Positions 3,795-11,406 of a stretch of 64,000 bases of DNA are shown in pieces (the stretch's first letter is position 1; each line of letters starts with the position of its first letter). The stretch covers positions 62,001-126,000 of the forward strand of contig NZ_NFJL01000001.1 of the NCBI RefSeq assembly GCF_002159835.1, given 5' to 3'. Position numbers and translations under genes: made by a program. Below the pieces are notes generated by a model. The model made no database searches. It saw only the letters and a program-made list of their open reading frames with translations, and was not told the origin of the DNA. Source of the DNA: Blautia sp. An249 (lineage in GTDB: Bacteria; Bacillota; Clostridia; Lachnospirales; Lachnospiraceae).

Positions 3795-4118
3795 TTAGTG
3801 TGTATTTTTATAATTACGTCCCCATTCTTCCATTGCGTCCAGAATCGGGCGCATGGACTCTCCCAGATCGCTTAAAGCATACTCCACCCGGGGAGGCACT
3901 TCCGGATAGACAGTACGGGTAATGATTCCGTCTTCTTCCATAGAACGAAGGCTGTCAGTTAATACTTTCTGGCTGATTCCTTCTAAATCTTTTTTCAATT
4001 CATTAAAGCGCCACGGCCGCTGCAGTAAATTTCTTATAATCAGTATTTTCCATTTGCTGCCAATCAACTGAACAGTAGTTGCCACAGGGCAGGCGGGCAG
4101 TTCTTCTTTCGTCAGCAT
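3795..4118 (-). CDS. HxlR-family winged-helix regulator
   Basis: A 107-residue HxlR/MarR-like protein: CPVATTVQLIGSKWKILIIRNL at the N-terminus, RFNELKKDLEGISQKVLTDSLRSME as the recognition helix region, and PPRVEYALSDLGESM as the wing. The ATG at 4118 lies 5 bases from AGGAGGG; a TTG at 4121 is too close. HxlR proteins often sense redox or aldehyde stress, which would fit the reductase genes upstream, but the target is inferred only. Confidence 0.85.
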   Translation of the reverse strand: MLTKEELPACPVATTVQLIGSKWKILIIRNLLQRPWRFNELKKDLEGISQKVLTDSLRSMEEDGIITRTVYPEVPPRVEYALSDLGESMRPILDAMEEWGRNYKNTH

Positions 4119-4234
4119 CAAATCCCTCCTTTATGGTAATTTCGTACTGTGAAAATCAAGGTCTCTGTCATACTGGTATATTATCATATCCCCCGATATT
4201 ATTCTAAGCGATTCCTTAAAGTTGTTCCATCTGT

Positions 4235-4575: not shown

Positions 4576-5463
4576 CTACAACATTGCCAAATAACTGTAC
4601 AGCCTTTCATTCACATACCCTGCAAATAATTTCTCCATTGCTCCTAAATTATGTTTAACATGATATTCATCAAAAGCGTTATAATAGGCAATCCGATCTG
4701 TAAATTTAATATCAATCGGCGGATAACCTGCTTTCATCAATTCCAGATTCACAAGTAACCGTCCCGTGCGGCCGTTTCCGTCGATAAAAGGGTGGATGCC
4801 CTCAAACTCAATATGAAACTGTGCAAGCCGGGGGATGATATGCTCTGTGCTGTTCCTATAGTCATCCAGCAACTGTTCCATCTTAGGCTGGATAAGATAA
4901 GGCTGCACCGGTTCATGCTGCGCTCCCATGATTCTTACCGGAACTCTTCTGTAAACTCCACGGTCATCTTTTTTATCAGCCAGAACCAGATAATGAATCT
5001 GTTTGATTACGCGCTCTGATAAAGGCACCTGCTCTTTTACTAAATCCTGTACAAAATAAAAGGCTTCTTTATGTCCCACCGCCTCCATATGATCTTTTAA
5101 CGGCTTTTTGTCAATCGTCAGCCCGCGCAGTACCATGTCCGTTTCCCGAAGGGTCAGCGTATTTCCCTCAATCGCATTGGAATTATAGGTGTATTCAACT
5201 ACAAATTCCTCCGTGAGACGTTCCACCTCTCCCTCTGTCAGCGGACGTCTGGAGTTCAATTCTGTTTTTTTTCTGTCAATCATTTCCAATAAATTTTCTG
5301 TAGTCTTATATCGTCTATCCTCTGGTTTCTTTGCATTTTCTGGTATTTTCCAGCTACGTCCCTCACGGGTAACGCCTGGTATCTTCCCTTCTGAACAAAG
5401 TATCCTTACTCTTCTATCTGAAATGCCCCATTTCTCTGCAGCCTGCTTCACTGTCATGTACAT
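4576..5463 (-). CDS. Fic/DOC-family protein with N-terminal helix-turn-helix
   Basis: A 295-residue protein. Residues 1-45 form a MerR/excisionase-like helix-turn-helix (TVKQAAEKWGISDRRVRILCSEGKIPGVTREGRSWKIP). The Fic core carries HPFIDGNGRTGR at 224-235, with the catalytic His and the nucleotide-binding residues intact. An inhibitory helix motif SNAIEGN at 95-101 precedes it, as in class II Fic proteins. Such enzymes AMPylate or otherwise modify proteins and are held inactive by that Glu. The ATG at 5463 follows GAGGTG; an in-frame extension upstream lacks a ribosome site. The DNA-binding domain and promoter repeats suggest autoregulation. Confidence 0.85.
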   Translation of the reverse strand: MYMTVKQAAEKWGISDRRVRILCSEGKIPGVTREGRSWKIPENAKKPEDRRYKTTENLLEMIDRKKTELNSRRPLTEGEVERLTEEFVVEYTYNSNAIEGNTLTLRETDMVLRGLTIDKKPLKDHMEAVGHKEAFYFVQDLVKEQVPLSERVIKQIHYLVLADKKDDRGVYRRVPVRIMGAQHEPVQPYLIQPKMEQLLDDYRNSTEHIIPRLAQFHIEFEGIHPFIDGNGRTGRLLVNLELMKAGYPPIDIKFTDRIAYYNAFDEYHVKHNLGAMEKLFAGYVNERLYSYLAML

Positions 5464-5488
5464 AAATCTACACCTCACTTCAAACAAT

Positions 5489-5554: not shown

Positions 5555-5790
5555 GCAAAAGTTTTCCATGGTGCGCGTCCATTTTAAAGCCAGCCGCCTT
5601 GTGATAAACGGATAACGGCACACACCAAATTTTTTAATCAAGGAGGACATAGGAAATCCAAACTTTTCAGGTTACAAAAAGGTAACTATGTAATAAAAAA
5701 GTGCGTACTGTTTTTCTTTTTTTCCATGTTCTACAATAAGACCATGGAACAGGAAATCGTTCCAAAAATGAAAAGCGGAGGTAATATATT

Positions 5791-5985
5791 ATGGCACTTT
5801 CTAATTTATTCGGATGGGCGAAGAAACAAGAGGAACCGGCAGCATCTGCCTGTGGAACCGCCTGCGGAGCCGGAGACAAACCGGAAGAGAAACCCGCTGC
5901 CTGCGGAACTGCCTGTGGTGCCGGAGACAAACCGGAGGAACAGCCCGCCGCCTGTGGAACTGCCTGCGGAGCCGGAGATAAATAA
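5791..5985 (+). CDS. Cys-rich three-repeat peptide, radical-SAM-modified RiPP precursor (ACGX-repeat type)
   Basis: A 64-residue peptide: a 19-residue leader-like head (MALSNLFGWAKKQEEPAAS), then the unit ACGTACGAGDKPEE(K/Q)PA twice and a final ACGTACGAGDK. Six Cys occur, two per unit, each preceded by Ala and followed by Gly. GCGGAGG at 5775-5781 lies 9 bases from the ATG. The next gene is a radical SAM enzyme with extra C-terminal Cys clusters, the usual RiPP pairing. I recall a clostridial class described as ACGX-repeat peptides with a dedicated maturase; this matches, but it could not be searched. Product and activity unknown. Confidence 0.75.
   Translation: MALSNLFGWAKKQEEPAASACGTACGAGDKPEEKPAACGTACGAGDKPEEQPAACGTACGAGDK
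5848..5982 (+). repeat. 51-bp tandem coding repeat (2.6 copies)
   Basis: Units at 5848-5898, 5899-5949 and a partial 5950-5982 encode the Cys-bearing repeat. They differ mostly at third codon positions, so the peptide repeat is conserved more than the DNA. This suggests selection on the encoded unit rather than very recent duplication. Confidence 0.7.
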
Positions 5986-5998
5986 ATCCGGACTCTTA

Positions 5999-6026
5999 TT
6001 TCCGGCAGGAGTAAACCTGCCGGAAA
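5999..6026 (+). terminator. intercistronic hairpin between precursor and maturase
   Basis: TTTCCGGCAGG and CCTGCCGGAAA form an 11-bp perfect stem with a 6-base loop, 14 bases after the peptide stop. No T-run follows, so it is more likely a 3'-end stabiliser or partial attenuator than a full terminator. Such an element would allow much more precursor than enzyme to be made. Confidence 0.55.
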
Positions 6027-6060
6027 CAGGATTCAGGTGATTTCAAAGGAGGAAAAGAAG

Positions 6061-7092
6061 ATGAAAGAGTATTTTGCTTTTCAATGGCATATAACAGATG
6101 AGTGTGATCAGCGTTGTAAGCACTGTTACATTTTTTCAGAAGATAATTGTAAGAAACCGGAGGCAATGACCTGGAACCAGATGCAGAAAACATTTGAGAA
6201 CTGTCTTGATTTCTGCCGGACATTCGGACGACTTCCGTATTTTTATATTACAGGGGGCGATCCTATTTTGCATCCGGATTTCTGGAAACTGCTGTCATTG
6301 TTTAAAGAGCATGAAATTCCATTTACGATTTTAGGAAATCCATTCCATCTGAACACGCAGGTCTGTCAGAAACTAAAATTCTATGGATGTCAAAAATATC
6401 AGCTTTCCCTTGACGGGATGCGAAAAACTCATGACTGGTTCAGAAAACCGGGGTCCTTTGACTGCACTCTGGAAAAAATCCAATGCATCAAAGAGGCAGG
6501 GATACGTTCGGTGATTATGACAACCGTATCCGGTAAAAATATCAGGGAAGTTCCGGATATTATTGATACGGTAGTGAAATACGGGGCGGATGTATTTGCC
6601 TTTGCCCGTTATTGTCCTACAAGTGAGGAGAAAGAAATAGGAATCACGCCCTTGGAATACCGGGAACTGTTAGACCTCTGTTATAAAAAATTCCGAAAAT
6701 ATGAAGATGAGGGATGTTCTACTTATTTTAACAGAAAAGATCACCTCTGGACCCTTTATGAATATGAAGAGGGAATCTTTAAAATTCCCGAAGACGCTCA
6801 GGAGGGAATGATTTACGGCGGGTGCAATTGCGGAAACTGCCATATGACCATTCTCCCCACCGGAGATATTTATGCCTGCAGACGAGTACAGAACAGTAAA
6901 GTCGGAAACGTATTGAAAGACCGTATATCCGATGTCTGGGTCTGCCGGATGGAAGAATACCGGGACTATGGAAAGTTTGAAAAATGCTCCAGATGTGAAT
7001 TACTGGCCTGGTGCCGGGGCTGTCCGGCAGTAGCGGCAGGAAAGGACGGCAACTTCTATGGTGTGGATCCCCAGTGCTGGAAAGAGGTGTAA
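6061..7092 (+). CDS. radical SAM/SPASM-like peptide maturase
   Basis: A 343-residue enzyme with the radical SAM motif CDQRCKHC (Cys15, Cys19, Cys22) binding the SAM-cleaving 4Fe-4S cluster. A C-terminal region holds CNCGNC, a Cys about 12 residues later, CSRCELLAWCRGC and a last Cys (SPASM-like auxiliary clusters). AAAGGAGG at 6045-6052 is 8 bases from this ATG; an in-frame GTG at 6037 lies upstream of it. Placed directly after the Cys-repeat peptide, it probably installs a thioether or other crosslink on the ACG units (inference). Its stop overlaps the leader of the next gene, implying one operon. Confidence 0.85.
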   Translation: MKEYFAFQWHITDECDQRCKHCYIFSEDNCKKPEAMTWNQMQKTFENCLDFCRTFGRLPYFYITGGDPILHPDFWKLLSLFKEHEIPFTILGNPFHLNTQVCQKLKFYGCQKYQLSLDGMRKTHDWFRKPGSFDCTLEKIQCIKEAGIRSVIMTTVSGKNIREVPDIIDTVVKYGADVFAFARYCPTSEEKEIGITPLEYRELLDLCYKKFRKYEDEGCSTYFNRKDHLWTLYEYEEGIFKIPEDAQEGMIYGGCNCGNCHMTILPTGDIYACRRVQNSKVGNVLKDRISDVWVCRMEEYRDYGKFEKCSRCELLAWCRGCPAVAAGKDGNFYGVDPQCWKEV

Positions 7093-7094
7093 AA

Positions 7095-7718
7095 ATGGAT
7101 GCACAGACTTGTCTGAAAAAACTGCAGTATGTGGGCGTATTAAATTTTGCCACGGTTGGGCTGGATAAATCTCCCCAGGTGCGGTGTATCAGCGCCGTTC
7201 ATTACGAACCGGATGCATTGTATTTTTTTACTGCCAGAGGAAAGGAGTTCTGCAGAGAACTGCTGCATGACGGTCAGGTGCAGATCCTGGCATATACCAG
7301 ATACAAAGAGATGATCCGCGTATCAGCAAAAGCGGTTGTAGTTCCCGAAGAAGAACAGAAAAAATACAGAGAACTGATTTTTCAGGAACAGCCCTATCTG
7401 GCTAATGTATATCCTGGTTCCACAAGGGAAATCGGAATCATATTCTGTGTCCGGGATATGCAGATAGAATATTTTCATCTGGGAGTTCATCCCATTTTCC
7501 GTATGCAGTATACTATAGGAAACGGTGAGAAAAAACCGAAAGGTTATACGATTACCGGGGACTGTATCGGATGTGGAACCTGTGCGGGGGTATGCCCTCA
7601 GGGATGCATTGAACCGGGAGAACCTTTCCGCATTATGCAGGAGCACTGTCTTCACTGCGGGAGTTGTTTAGAGCACTGCCCGGTACAGGCGGTAAGAAAT
7701 ATAAAGGAAGAAGTATGA
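7095..7718 (+). CDS. pyridoxamine 5'-phosphate oxidase-fold protein with 2x[4Fe-4S] ferredoxin domain
   Basis: A 207-residue fusion. Residues 1-130 form a PNPOx-like flavin-binding split barrel (LNFATVGLDKSPQVRCISAVH, YFFTARGKEF). Residues 155-200 carry two clusters: CIGCGTCAGVCPQGC and CLHCGSCLEHCP, each C-x2-C-x2-C-x3-C. It should move electrons between flavin and iron-sulfur centres in the cytoplasm. Two bases separate it from the radical SAM gene and it overlaps the sirtuin gene by four (ATGA). It could be the electron donor for the maturase or reduce the modified peptide; this is inferred from position only. Confidence 0.8.
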   Translation: MDAQTCLKKLQYVGVLNFATVGLDKSPQVRCISAVHYEPDALYFFTARGKEFCRELLHDGQVQILAYTRYKEMIRVSAKAVVVPEEEQKKYRELIFQEQPYLANVYPGSTREIGIIFCVRDMQIEYFHLGVHPIFRMQYTIGNGEKKPKGYTITGDCIGCGTCAGVCPQGCIEPGEPFRIMQEHCLHCGSCLEHCPVQAVRNIKEEV

Positions 7719-8656
7719 ATTTATTAAGAAGAAAGGCGGTGTATCCAATGCCAGGATGGTGTGTGTCGAAACCCCGGTTTACCATGGATGAAATACGGAG
7801 ACTGGGTGAAGTCATAGAGCGGGCCGATGCAATTCTTATGGGAGCAGGAGCCGGGCTGTCTGCATCGGCGGGCTTTGATTATACAGGAGTCCGCTTTCAG
7901 AAATATTTTTCTGATTTTGCAGAAAAATACGGTTTCAGAGATATGTATTCCGGAGGCTTTTATCCTTATGAAACGTTGGAAGAACACTGGGCCTACTGGA
8001 GCAGATATATTTATATTAACCGCTATAGGAACGCCCCAAAACCGGTATATGAAAAGTTGTATGAGCTGGTGAAAGAGAAAGATTACTTCGTTCTGACAAC
8101 CAATGTGGATCACTGTTTTCAGAAAGCCGGTTTTGATAAGAGCCGGTTGTTTTACACCCAGGGGGACTATGGATTGTTTCAGTGCAGTGTGCCCTGCCAT
8201 CAGGAGACGTATGATAATGAAACAGTTATCCGTAAGATGGTTGAGGCTCAGGGATACGAAATTGCTGAAAATGGGGAACTGTATCTGCCGGAAGGAAGAA
8301 GACCGGAAAGGAAGGTTCCTTCGGAATGGATTCCTTACTGTCCCAGATGCGGAAAACCTATGAGTATGAATCTACGTGCGGATGACACCTTTGTGGAAGA
8401 TACGGGATGGCGTAAAGCAGCCGGGCGTTATGCAGATTTTCGGCGCAGACATCAGGGAAGAATCCTGCTTTTGGAAATCGCTGTAGGATATAACACCCCG
8501 GGGGTCATCAAGTATCCCTTCTGGCAGATGACCTATGAGAATCCCATGGCGGTGTATGCCTGCGTGAATCTGGGGGAGGCCGCCGCTCCCGGGGAAATCG
8601 CAGACCGGTCAATTTGTATTGACGGGGATATTGGAGAGACGCTGAAATTTTTATAA
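7715..8656 (+). CDS. SirTM-class sirtuin (NAD-dependent protein ADP-ribosyltransferase/deacylase)
   Basis: A 313-residue Sir2-family protein. It shows an NAD-binding GAGAGLSASAGF loop, TTNVDHCFQKAGF, a zinc-ribbon-like CSVPCH...CPRCG pair and MSMNLRADDTFVED. This pattern matches the class M sirtuins of pathogenic and gut Firmicutes, which ADP-ribosylate a lipoylated GcvH-like carrier. The start overlaps the preceding stop as ATGA; a second ATG at 7748 is possible. No GcvH-L or lipoate ligase gene lies nearby, which is unusual for the class. It is instead translationally coupled to the ferredoxin fusion, and a zinc macrodomain gene lies 1.4 kb downstream. Confidence 0.85.
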   Translation: MNLLRRKAVYPMPGWCVSKPRFTMDEIRRLGEVIERADAILMGAGAGLSASAGFDYTGVRFQKYFSDFAEKYGFRDMYSGGFYPYETLEEHWAYWSRYIYINRYRNAPKPVYEKLYELVKEKDYFVLTTNVDHCFQKAGFDKSRLFYTQGDYGLFQCSVPCHQETYDNETVIRKMVEAQGYEIAENGELYLPEGRRPERKVPSEWIPYCPRCGKPMSMNLRADDTFVEDTGWRKAAGRYADFRRRHQGRILLLEIAVGYNTPGVIKYPFWQMTYENPMAVYACVNLGEAAAPGEIADRSICIDGDIGETLKFL

Positions 8657-9097: not shown

Positions 9098-9928
9098 TTA
9101 CCTGAAACGCCGGGTAAATTCTTCATAAGTAATTTTTCCCAATGCAAGTTCCGACATGGTAAGATACAGTTGTTCTCCCTTCGTATAGGGGCGATTCAGA
9201 GCAGGTTCCAGCAGGTTCAGTTCGTTTTTCAGCGGATGCAGTACATGGGTTCTTTTGGAAAAGGCTTCATAATAACGGACTCCGAATTTTCGCTGGGAGA
9301 CGGCATTGATATGGATTCCGTCAGGATTAGAGGTCAATCCGCGGGCAGTGACGAAATACGTGTTTTTCTGCTCTCTGGCAAATCTCAGCAATTCGCAGTT
9401 TATCTGTTCGTATTCGGTACAGTTTCGTCCAAAGCCGTATTTCCCCAGAAAATCTGCCAGACCGCCGATCAGAAAGGGAACGTCTGGAGCATTCAGCTCT
9501 TTTCGCAGGGTATCGGAAAGAACTTTTAATTTATCATAATAGGTCTGATAGCGTCCTTCATAGCTGTCATTTTCCCCCTGATGCCATAAAATGCAGATAA
9601 GCTCACTGTTCTGGAGAGCAAATTTTGTCTGGAAGACGGCATTTCTGAACAGGATTTTATCTGCAGACCAGTCATCTAAAGAACTTCCGCCTTCGGCACA
9701 GGGAATGAGGCCTATTTTTTCTTTTTTATTTTCCAGGCACCACATGGCGGCGAATGAGACAGCAGGGCTGATTCCGGAAACAGGCCTATCATAATTAACA
9801 GGTTCTTCCATCATCTGCCATCTTCCGTTTCGGAGCATTTGAATCCGTTCATTACAGATGGCCGGTACTTCTTCTATAAATCCACGGCCGGCCATATTGG
9901 ACTGGCCAATCATTAATACTGATTTCAT
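9098..9928 (-). CDS. SGNH-type carbohydrate acetylesterase (sialate O-acetylesterase-like)
   Basis: A 276-residue protein with the catalytic-serine block MIGQSNMAGRG at residues 6-16, a GxxSLxDW oxyanion region (EGGSSLDDW), WHQGENDSYEG with the family's Gln-Gly-Glu motif, and SNPDGIHIN supplying the Asp and His. These are the SGNH/CE6-like esterase blocks that remove O-acetyl groups from sugars. No signal peptide is visible, so it is cytoplasmic. It stands alone on the minus strand between the RhuM fragment and the macrodomain gene. It may have arrived with the event that broke RhuM. Confidence 0.8.
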   Translation of the reverse strand: MKSVLMIGQSNMAGRGFIEEVPAICNERIQMLRNGRWQMMEEPVNYDRPVSGISPAVSFAAMWCLENKKEKIGLIPCAEGGSSLDDWSADKILFRNAVFQTKFALQNSELICILWHQGENDSYEGRYQTYYDKLKVLSDTLRKELNAPDVPFLIGGLADFLGKYGFGRNCTEYEQINCELLRFAREQKNTYFVTARGLTSNPDGIHINAVSQRKFGVRYYEAFSKRTHVLHPLKNELNLLEPALNRPYTKGEQLYLTMSELALGKITYEEFTRRFR

Positions 9929-10023
9929 AGAAAATTCCCCCTTACAGTAGTTTCAAAAGATTATATCACAGAGAAACTCCGGCAGCAATGGAATTTAGAT
10001 TTTATAGAAAAGGAGGGGCAAAG

Positions 10024-10803
10024 GTGACCCATACGGAAAAAAGAGAATATCTGATAAAAGAATTACTGGGGGAACTTCCCCAGTACAGAGACATGGAGAT
10101 ACCAGGGGAGGAAGAGGAGCAGAAACGGCTTCTCAGAAGTCTGATGAATATTCGTTCTCCCCGTCTCATAAGCGATGAGTTCCTTGAAATTCAGGATGAA
10201 TATTTAAGGGAAGAAGTCGAAAGAAAGGGAGTTACAGACAGTGCGTCTCTGCCGGTTTCCTCCCTTGACAGCCGTCTGGCATTATGGCGGGGAGATATTA
10301 CCACTTTAAAAATTGATGCCATTGTAAATGCAGCTAACAGCGCTTTAAGGGGATGTTTCATACCCTGCCATTCCTGTGTAGATAATATCATTCACAGTGT
10401 GAGCGGTATTCAGCTAAGACTGGCCTGCGATGAATTAATGAAAAAACAGGGATATGACGAACCGACGGGAAAAGCAAAAATCACGCCGGCGTATAATTTA
10501 CCTTCTGAATATGTAATCCATACGGTAGGCCCTATTGTATCCGGATGTCTGACGGATAAACACTGCAGACAACTGGCAGACTGCTATCAATCCTGCTTAA
10601 AGCTTGCCGCAGATAATGGACTGAAAAGTATTGCGTTCTGCTGTATTTCCACAGGAGAATTTCATTTTCCCCAGAAAAAAGCAGCGGAAATTGCAGTAAA
10701 AACAGTTACGGACTTTCTGGGTAAAGACACATCCGTGGAGAAAGTAGTATTTAATGTTTTCAGGCAGGAGGATTATGATATTTACCAGAAGCTTATGGGC
10801 TAA
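10024..10803 (+). CDS. zinc-type macrodomain protein-ADP-ribose hydrolase
   Basis: A 259-residue protein. After about 85 helical residues comes a macrodomain: WRGDITTLKIDAIVNAANS, GCFIPCHSC (Cys-x3-His-x-Cys zinc ligands), VIHTVGPI and FCCISTGEFHFP. This zinc-bearing subtype is the known partner of SirTM sirtuins and removes the ADP-ribose they add. The GTG at 10024 has AAAGGAGG at 10008-10015; the upstream in-frame ATG at 9988 has no ribosome site. It is 1.4 kb from the SirTM gene, separated by the RhuM fragment and the antisense esterase. Confidence 0.85.
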   Translation: MTHTEKREYLIKELLGELPQYRDMEIPGEEEEQKRLLRSLMNIRSPRLISDEFLEIQDEYLREEVERKGVTDSASLPVSSLDSRLALWRGDITTLKIDAIVNAANSALRGCFIPCHSCVDNIIHSVSGIQLRLACDELMKKQGYDEPTGKAKITPAYNLPSEYVIHTVGPIVSGCLTDKHCRQLADCYQSCLKLAADNGLKSIAFCCISTGEFHFPQKKAAEIAVKTVTDFLGKDTSVEKVVFNVFRQEDYDIYQKLMG

Positions 10804-10932: not shown

Positions 10933-11406
10933 ATGAGTAAAACATTAGTTGCTTATTTTTCAGCCAGCGGTGTGACCGCAAAATTAGCAAAAACACTGGC
11001 CGACGCCATCGGGGCAGATTTGCATGAGATAAAGCCGGAGACTCCTTATACGGATGCAGACTTAAACTGGAACAATCCCAAGAGCCGCAGCAGTGTGGAA
11101 ATGAATGATAAATCTTTCCGTCCCCCGGTTGCCGGAGGAGTAGATCATATGGAGGAGTATGACCGGATTTTCGTAGGTTTTCCTATTTGGTGGTATGTGG
11201 CCCCTACAATTATTAATACCTTCCTGGAACAGTACGATTTGGCAGGGAAAACGGTGGTTCCATTTGCAACTTCCGGTGGCAGCGGAATGGGAAATACTAA
11301 CCGGGAGCTGAAGGATTCCTGTAAAGGAGCCAACTTAAAGGAAGGAAAAAGATTCAGCGCAAATGCAGGAACTTCGGAACTGAAAACATGGGCAGAACAG
11401 TTCTGA
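10933..11406 (+). CDS. flavodoxin
   Basis: A 157-residue flavodoxin-fold protein: VAYFSASGVTAKLAK is the FMN phosphate loop, FVGFPIWWYVAPTIINTFLE supplies the flavin-stacking aromatic residues, and VVPFATSGGSGMGNT the third loop. It is a cytoplasmic one- or two-electron carrier of the long-loop FMN-reductase-like type. ATGGAGG precedes the ATG. It is monocistronic, followed by the toxin-antitoxin-like locus. Confidence 0.85.
   Translation: MSKTLVAYFSASGVTAKLAKTLADAIGADLHEIKPETPYTDADLNWNNPKSRSSVEMNDKSFRPPVAGGVDHMEEYDRIFVGFPIWWYVAPTIINTFLEQYDLAGKTVVPFATSGGSGMGNTNRELKDSCKGANLKEGKRFSANAGTSELKTWAEQF

Follow-up and report, generated by a model that had tools for sequence, protein, structure and literature searches.

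A clostridial cassette that joins an ACGX peptide and its radical SAM enzyme to a class M sirtuin, with a possible role in electrophile or thiol stress

Organization of the locus and its genes

We analyzed a stretch of 64,000 nt from Blautia sp. An249 (contig NZ_NFJL01000001.1, from a genome that is 99.91% complete; the whole stretch is referred to here as the window), in which a short cysteine-rich peptide gene is followed by genes for a radical SAM enzyme, a flavoprotein, and a class M sirtuin (SirTM). The peptide (positions 5791 to 5985, plus strand) has 64 residues, 6 of them cysteines, carries the leader MALSNLFGW, and contains three ACGTACGAGDK units with the linkers PEEKPA and PEEQPA. 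The gene of a radical SAM/SPASM maturase (rSAM; 6061 to 7092, plus strand) lies 75 nt downstream. After a gap of 2 bases comes the gene of a 207-residue PNPOx-fold protein of the flavin mononucleotide (FMN) split-barrel type that ends in a 2[4Fe-4S] ferredoxin domain (PNPOx-ferredoxin; 7095 to 7718, plus strand), which overlaps the SirTM gene (7715 to 8656, plus strand) by ATGA. The original prediction had claimed a coupled operon of these four genes at these positions, with the same gap and overlap, and this observation is confirmed as correct.

The peptide scored 79.3 bits against TIGR04341 (cut-off, 28), and the adjacent rSAM scored 605.5 bits against TIGR04340 (cut-off, 400) and matched PF04055 and PF13186. 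By these curated scores, the two genes are a named NCBIfam pair, the uncharacterized "ACGX system," to which our analysis adds the surrounding context of an HxlR regulator and its operator, reductases, PNPOx-ferredoxin, and SirTM with a zinc (Zn)-type macrodomain. Among open-licence PMC papers, we found none on the ACGX system. The earlier statement that no described system joins the four parts stands insofar as no paper joining them was found in that collection, but the peptide and rSAM already bear a name. SkfB and 5wgg were the closest of four solved relatives compared with rSAM; we take 5wgg to be the ranthipeptide maturase CteB.

The best solved relative of SirTM was the SIR2-family protein 5a3a (phmmer E value, 6e-64), which we take to be the SirTM of Streptococcus pyogenes (SpySirTM). 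Against Pfam SIR2, the window protein reached 19.5 bits, under the cut-off of 24, and the NCBIfam deacylase cut-offs were not reached either. A QG motif stands in the place of HG. In the alignment with the 5a3a chain, N130 pairs with residue 128, Q149 with residue 147, and R221 with residue 202, presumably SpySirTM N118, Q137, and R192 if a tag offset of 10 residues is assumed. With the QG motif and the aligned Asn, Gln, and Arg, whose equivalence assumes that 5a3a is SpySirTM with this offset, the protein has the features of a class M sirtuin and is a predicted protein ADP-ribosyltransferase. The three SpySirTM residues were reported as essential in PMC4518038. Elsewhere in the same genome (G000:C6:98266-99923; L114 8231 to 10044, minus strand) lie two tandem, divergent SirTM-like proteins with 32 to 36% identity to that of the window; in one of them, the catalytic Gln is replaced by Glu, and the surrounding 15 kb gave no match to the window macrodomain.

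That macrodomain (9988 to 10803, plus strand) lies about 1.3 kb downstream of SirTM, with foreign genes between. It scored 350 bits against NF003163 (cut-off, 272), and its best match in the Protein Data Bank (PDB) was 8rsi (E value, 1.8e-86). The Zn loop GCFIPCHSC and a Dx3H motif are present (GCFIPCHSCVDNIIH); among 23 macrodomain sequences, the window's included, the loop pattern was found in 21 and a DNx(I/V)H motif in all 23. Since it carries the zinc loop, the protein is predicted to be an ADP-ribosyl hydrolase and the usual partner of SirTM, here displaced. Zn-macrodomains are said in PMC11490716 to be the sole known hydrolases that cleave Cys-ADP-ribose, and the same source states that supporting evidence for the part played by zinc in this cleavage had been lacking.

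In PNPOx-ferredoxin, the PNPOx_N (PF01243) and Fer4 domains both exceeded their Pfam cut-offs, and the eight cluster cysteines were invariant across 31 aligned sequences. A Foldseek search gave a NimA/NimC-type protein, 2ig6, as the best match (E value, 4.8e-9), with other PNPOx proteins also close; the AlphaFold2 model had a pLDDT of 94.5. PNPOx-ferredoxin is likely an electron-transfer flavoprotein.

Recurrence of the cassette and linkage of SirTM to the ACGX pair

Neighbors were compared among the 80 best of 91 relatives by similarity to the window rSAM (the named set); 58 of these loci have at least 5 kb downstream, and 22 are too short. Clusters of neighboring genes were each named from one scanned representative. 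The recurrent ones were a divergent HxlR (47 of the 80 loci), nitroreductase (44), PNPOx-ferredoxin (42), SirTM (33), a quinone-oxidoreductase-type dehydrogenase (26), and the Zn-macrodomain (22). A further cluster comes from 35 loci and coincides in position with the peptide; 14 of its 36 open reading frames (ORFs) share the strand of rSAM, and the cluster consists of readings of the peptide gene in either direction. The next families, an ABC ATPase without a permease domain, LysR, and DUF1848, were each near 11 loci, with no fixed strand or distance. When a gene was assigned to the cassette by a profile match on the rSAM strand between −0.4 and +5 kb, the 58 loci included 38 with a nitroreductase and 19 with a quinone oxidoreductase; 53 had either and 4 had both, and these two enzymes replaced each other (P = 1e-6). 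By the same rule, PNPOx-ferredoxin was found at 32 loci, SirTM at 26, the macrodomain at 15, and SirTM or the macrodomain at 27. The peptide was found in 65 of 71 named loci having at least 700 nt upstream, the six missed by the peptide rule being L011, L028, L031, L067, L068, and L073.

One locus, L183, carries the whole cassette: an HxlR gene in reverse orientation and then, co-oriented, the peptide, rSAM, nitroreductase, PNPOx-ferredoxin, SirTM, and, adjacent to it, the macrodomain. Judged by gene order, the window copy is a rearranged version of this conserved clostridial cassette, because neither reductase lies by its peptide and both the regulator and the macrodomain are displaced.

The regulator of the window (3795 to 4121, minus strand; PF01638 HxlR, 112 bits) is of the HxlR/DUF24 type and has a single, N-terminal cysteine (ACPVATT). 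Among 47 clustered relatives, the N-terminal CPxA is kept by 43, and 40 contain one Cys and no other; where 2.5 kb or more of upstream sequence was available, 46 of 61 named relatives had a divergent HxlR gene. An operator-like inverted repeat, GTTAC-AAAAAG-GTAAC (5671 to 5686, without strand), lies 120 nt 5' of the peptide start. In an unbiased search for inverted repeats 5' of the peptide, GTTAC-N6-GTAAC ranked first, with 19 of 68 regions against at most 3 in shuffles. In 69 upstream regions, the operator was matched exactly in 20, with up to one mismatch in 42, and with up to two in 55, where shuffles, simple letter or two-base-block ones here as in the other operator comparisons, gave 0.04, 0.56, and 7.7, respectively. 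The sites lie mostly 110 to 141 nt before the peptide start; the window copy is exact (GTTACAAAAAGGTAAC) and is the sole match with up to one mismatch in the whole 64 kb.

YodB and QsrR are reported to sense quinones through an N-terminal cysteine and, by means of it, to regulate nitroreductases and quinone reductases (PMC6798810). The present regulator shares with these quinone-stress regulons the HxlR domain, the N-terminal cysteine, and, in related cassettes, adjacent nitroreductase or quinone reductase genes (none by the window peptide), but it differs in adjoining a peptide like those of ribosomally synthesized and posttranslationally modified peptide (RiPP) systems and an ADP-ribosylation pair, which it presumably controls. 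By analogy, the one-cysteine HxlR protein is predicted to respond to stress from thiols or electrophiles. Because the regulator is of the one-cysteine kind seen in YodB and QsrR and reductases belong to the cassette, we infer that regulator, operator, and reductases point to a role in electrophile or thiol stress. The original prediction had proposed that the sirtuin senses the redox state of the pathway. A redox connection gains weight from HxlR, from its operator, and from the nitroreductase or quinone oxidoreductase that related cassettes carry.

We then considered the linkage of SirTM across 397 genomes of the family to which Blautia sp. An249 belongs. Fifty-one genomes, with 53 loci, exceeded the rSAM_ACGX cut-off, and 265 had some SirTM-like match, of which the 150 best listed matches were placed. 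A listed SirTM lay within 10 kb of 27 of the 53 loci, always on the same strand and 0.6 to 4.3 kb away, where simple arithmetic predicts fewer than one. This survey overlaps with the named set, as 7 of 30 fetched family loci share identical rSAM DNA with a named locus. At the genome level, a listed SirTM was present in 40 of 51 ACGX genomes versus 103 of 346 others (P = 6e-11), and after removal of the linked cases it was still present in 13 of 24 ACGX genomes (P = 0.02). Chance adjacency was therefore rejected on the counts of 27 of 53 family loci and 26 of 58 named loci together with the genome-level test, and the linkage of SirTM to ACGX is real. The original prediction had held that a SirTM not conserved beside the peptide and rSAM, or an ordinary GcvH-L substrate elsewhere in the genome, would speak against it; on the first point, SirTM repeatedly lies there.

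On a tree of 92 SirTM sequences, the ACGX label required 16 changes, at least 7 of them forced by starred branches; shuffled labels required 27.6 on average, and none of 500 shuffles was as low. On an rSAM tree of 57 rows, the presence of SirTM required 12 changes. Both are quick trees without bootstrap. Given these many label changes on both trees, the association has been gained or broken several times. As a separate observation, a divergent SirTM type, with 36 to 43% identity to that of the window, occurs in the ACGX cassettes of L033, L034, L036, L037, L039, L041, L047, and L069; six of these eight loci are in the SirTM tree, where they form one starred clade, so that two distant SirTM lineages have been recruited.

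According to PMC4518038, the SirTM enzymes of Staphylococcus aureus and S. pyogenes ADP-ribosylate lipoyl-GcvH-L. The window's own genome gave no match to GcvH (PF01597) and none to LplA/LipB-type ligases (PF21948), whereas each of the two control searches gave a match in 13 of 14 well-known genomes; two biotin/lipoyl domains were found. Thus, an ordinary GcvH-L was rejected as the substrate in this genome, the second point named above, and the known substrate of SirTM is missing. Of the 27 genomes in which ACGX and SirTM are linked, 11 had weak GCV_H matches of at most 24.8 bits, and in 5 of these the cut-off of 22.2 was exceeded. Six of the 12 match places were read, including those of all five over-cut-off genomes, and all were carboxyl-carrier-like, with an EAMK(M/L) motif; one such protein, when scanned, scored 74 bits for Biotin_lipoyl and 25 bits for GCV_H.

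Possible roles of the cassette

The repeats of the peptide suggest a chemistry. In 71 peptide sequences, the window's included, we counted 412 CG sites, of which 173 have a Cys at +4 (ACGxACG). At the remaining 239, the residue at +4 is Asp or Glu in 213 (Asp in 199, Glu in 14). Cys-X3-Asp/Glu is described in PMC9413430 as the motif that PapB converts to thioethers, and the window system shares with the PapB/PapA ranthipeptides the repetition of this motif and a SPASM radical SAM enzyme. It differs in the paired cysteines of ACGxACG and in the enzyme itself, so that the peptide pattern is that of a PapB-like substrate, with the likeness confined to the substrate because the score of rSAM falls short of PapB membership (64 bits against the PapB-type maturase model NF047865; cut-off, 340). 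PapB membership of rSAM was accordingly rejected.

We tentatively read the whole as an electrophile or thiol (quinone-like) stress cassette in which the modified peptide replaces lipoyl-GcvH-L and is gated by SirTM and the Zn-macrodomain, a full reading to which we give somewhat less than an even chance. In such a cassette, rSAM would form a PapB-like thioether within each C-X3-D/E unit, between its Cys and its Asp or Glu, and the first Cys of each ACGxACG pair would be left as a reactive thiol. The modified peptide would remain in the cell and act as a thiol carrier or thiol buffer that the flavin enzymes serve, and would take the role that lipoyl-GcvH-L has in the staphylococcal and streptococcal SirTM operon. 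SirTM would inactivate the carrier by attaching ADP-ribose to Cys or to the Asp or Glu of the repeat, and the Zn-macrodomain would reactivate it under stress. The narrower proposal that SirTM and the Zn-macrodomain reversibly ADP-ribosylate the rSAM-modified peptide, making it an intracellular ADP-ribosyl-gated thiol carrier, is unlikely when taken by itself, though a serious candidate. A Cys-rich target is plausible, since Zn-macrodomains are reported to cleave Cys-ADP-ribose. The original prediction had suggested that the peptide or a partner is reversibly ADP-ribosylated; this is partly supported, in that the linked SirTM and the eraser macrodomain make the peptide a possible target, but 123 of the 150 listed SirTMs lie without ACGX and about half of the ACGX loci are without SirTM.

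A close described counterpart is the extended Staphylococcus/Streptococcus SirTM operon, which according to PMC4518038 and PMC11490716 comprises GcvH-L, LplA2, SirTM, Zn-Macro, OYE, and LLM. Both systems include SirTM and a Zn-macrodomain along with oxidoreductases, and both have ties to redox stress. Neither GcvH-L nor LplA2 was matched in the window's genome, and the ACGX peptide and rSAM occupy the place of carrier and ligase; OYE and LLM may be paralleled by the nitroreductase, quinone oxidoreductase, and PNPOx-ferredoxin of the ACGX cassette. In that operon, ADP-ribosylation was proposed to keep the carrier from redox work (PMC11490716). GcvH-L is described in PMC11490716 as the only known SirTM target, the targets of other SirTM/Zn-macrodomain systems being unknown. 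If our reading is true, the peptide would be the first SirTM substrate besides lipoyl-GcvH-L and a genetically separate answer to the same redox task. The cassette would in any case supply concrete candidates for SirTM targets, the 64-residue peptide and the 207-residue flavoprotein, both of which can be produced and assayed in vitro, and the ACGX family gains a predicted chemistry (Cys-X3-Asp/Glu thioethers), a regulator with an operator, and a putative role in electrophile or thiol stress in gut anaerobes. Both halves, the RiPP-like pair and the ADP-ribosylation pair, are known. Among open-licence PMC papers, we found none that describes their repeated union with the HxlR operator and the reductases and none in which a radical SAM enzyme is joined with a sirtuin or a macrodomain.

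Several results weigh against the stress-carrier reading. The strongest is twofold: SirTM occurs with PNPOx proteins where no ACGX is found, and roughly every second ACGX locus lacks a linked SirTM. The 123 SirTMs counted above lie away from any over-cut-off rSAM_ACGX, and SirTM and the macrodomain are both absent from the cassette in 31 of 58 ACGX loci, so neither needs to be linked for the peptide pathway to operate. The numbers of repeats and cysteines in the peptide did not differ with the presence of SirTM (P = 0.16 to 0.64). Besides its low PapB score, rSAM has its SAM-cluster motif starting at residue 15, which leaves no space for an N-terminal leader-binding domain such as would suit a PapB-like enzyme. 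In the window, a profile search found neither a nitroreductase nor a quinone oxidoreductase next to the peptide, and in the whole genome the pattern GTTACN6GTRAC was no commoner than a control pattern (4 and 4 per strand), which gives no sign of a wider regulon.

The neighborhoods of the SirTMs without ACGX bear on two other explanations. We examined 60 of the 123 (L117 to L176), many of which end at contig ends. A macrodomain was found in 43, an HxlR in 15 (by profile, in the fetched stretches), and an Rrf2-type regulator in 14; a PNPOx-ferredoxin-like ORF was near 14 and another PNPOx near 9, with both in 6 and either in 17. SirTM with PNPOx in places without ACGX also tells against the carrier reading, as SirTM may act on the flavoprotein or in stress responses generally. 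Some of these neighborhoods adjoin rSAM fragments or a broken ACGX peptide (e.g., L118 and L120), and given these remnants and the contig ends, the linked share is a lower bound. The lone pairs, which occur in the same bacterial family and in others, consist of the same two enzymes, some of them with PNPOx or HxlR/Rrf2, and have no over-cut-off rSAM_ACGX nearby. As an observation in its own right, lone SirTM/Zn-macrodomain pairs among L117 to L176 recur with PNPOx-ferredoxin-like proteins, small PNPOx proteins, Rrf2 regulators, and NmrA-like NAD(P)-binding proteins, a set that is possibly a second SirTM module.

The first explanation is co-regulation only: SirTM and the Zn-macrodomain would be a mobile switch for stress in general, acting on targets elsewhere in the cell, and would have been recruited repeatedly to HxlR operons for the promoter and not for the peptide. 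The HxlR genes in 15 of the 60 neighborhoods fit this account, as do the numerous gains or losses on the trees. It is further supported by operator-like sites (up to one mismatch, within 2.6 kb), which precede 15 of the 60 SirTMs against 2.4 in shuffles. However, the strong concentration of SirTM beside ACGX, in 27 of 53 loci and always on the same strand, argues for a tie to the peptide pathway, and the chemistry ascribed to Zn-macrodomains in PMC11490716 suits a Cys/Asp-rich peptide. We regard co-regulation only as unlikely but well within reach.

Alternatively, the target of SirTM and the Zn-macrodomain could be PNPOx-ferredoxin or another flavoenzyme of the cassette, with the peptide acting separately within the same response to stress. 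The ATGA overlap of the two genes in the window and the PNPOx-type ORFs near 17 of the 60 SirTMs without over-cut-off rSAM_ACGX agree with such a target. So does the co-occurrence of SirTM and PNPOx-ferredoxin in ACGX cassettes, where 20 of 58 loci have both, 12 PNPOx-ferredoxin alone, 6 SirTM alone, and 20 neither (odds ratio, 5.6; P = 0.004 with kinship ignored), a pattern that likewise favors the flavoenzyme over the peptide as target. On the other hand, tree-corrected pairs were too few to bear on it, 6 of 26 SirTM-bearing cassettes are without PNPOx-ferredoxin, and this protein may merely supply electrons to rSAM. A flavoenzyme target thus seems to us rather improbable.

An ordinary secreted ranthipeptide or sactipeptide with SirTM as an accidental neighbor, which the RiPP-like architecture of precursor and maturase would suit, is very improbable and was already disfavored, because the neighbor families with at least 11 loci (one representative each scanned) showed no exporter permease and no peptidase, the neighbors being redox enzymes, the regulator, an ABC ATPase without a permease, LysR, and DUF1848, and because the SirTM linkage far exceeds chance. 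The same lack of an exporter among the recurrent families favors an intracellular peptide product, and a secreted antibiotic was rejected on this ground.

Neighboring genes in the window and in relatives

Two genes lie between SirTM and the macrodomain in the window, a RhuM-like fragment (8765 to about 9094, plus strand; PF13310) and a sialate-O-acetylesterase-type gene (9098 to 9928, minus strand; PF03629). Neither is a cassette member, because the macrodomain of L183 directly follows SirTM. A gene of the Fic/DOC family (4576 to 5487, minus strand; PF02661, 75 bits) stands between the regulator and the operator. It lies outside the conserved cassette and is probably an insertion, since L183 has no Fic gene and its HxlR is directly 5' of the peptide. 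The Fic/DOC protein has an N-terminal helix-turn-helix and matches the PADLOC candidate PDC-S04 and SoFic models. For the cassette genes themselves, PADLOC gave only a pVip-type radical SAM similarity, and a role in phage defense was rejected.

A flavodoxin gene (10933 to 11406, plus strand; NF005501, above cut-off) lies directly 3' of the macrodomain; relatives of it matched at just 5 of the 80 named ACGX loci, in scattered positions. The DUF1848 protein (PF08902) is found near 11 of the 80 loci, namely, in L025 (4757 to 5683), L026 (8455 to 9381), L033 (13498 to 14436), L039 (14123 to 15061), and seven others, and in L033 its gene lies between SirTM and the macrodomain.

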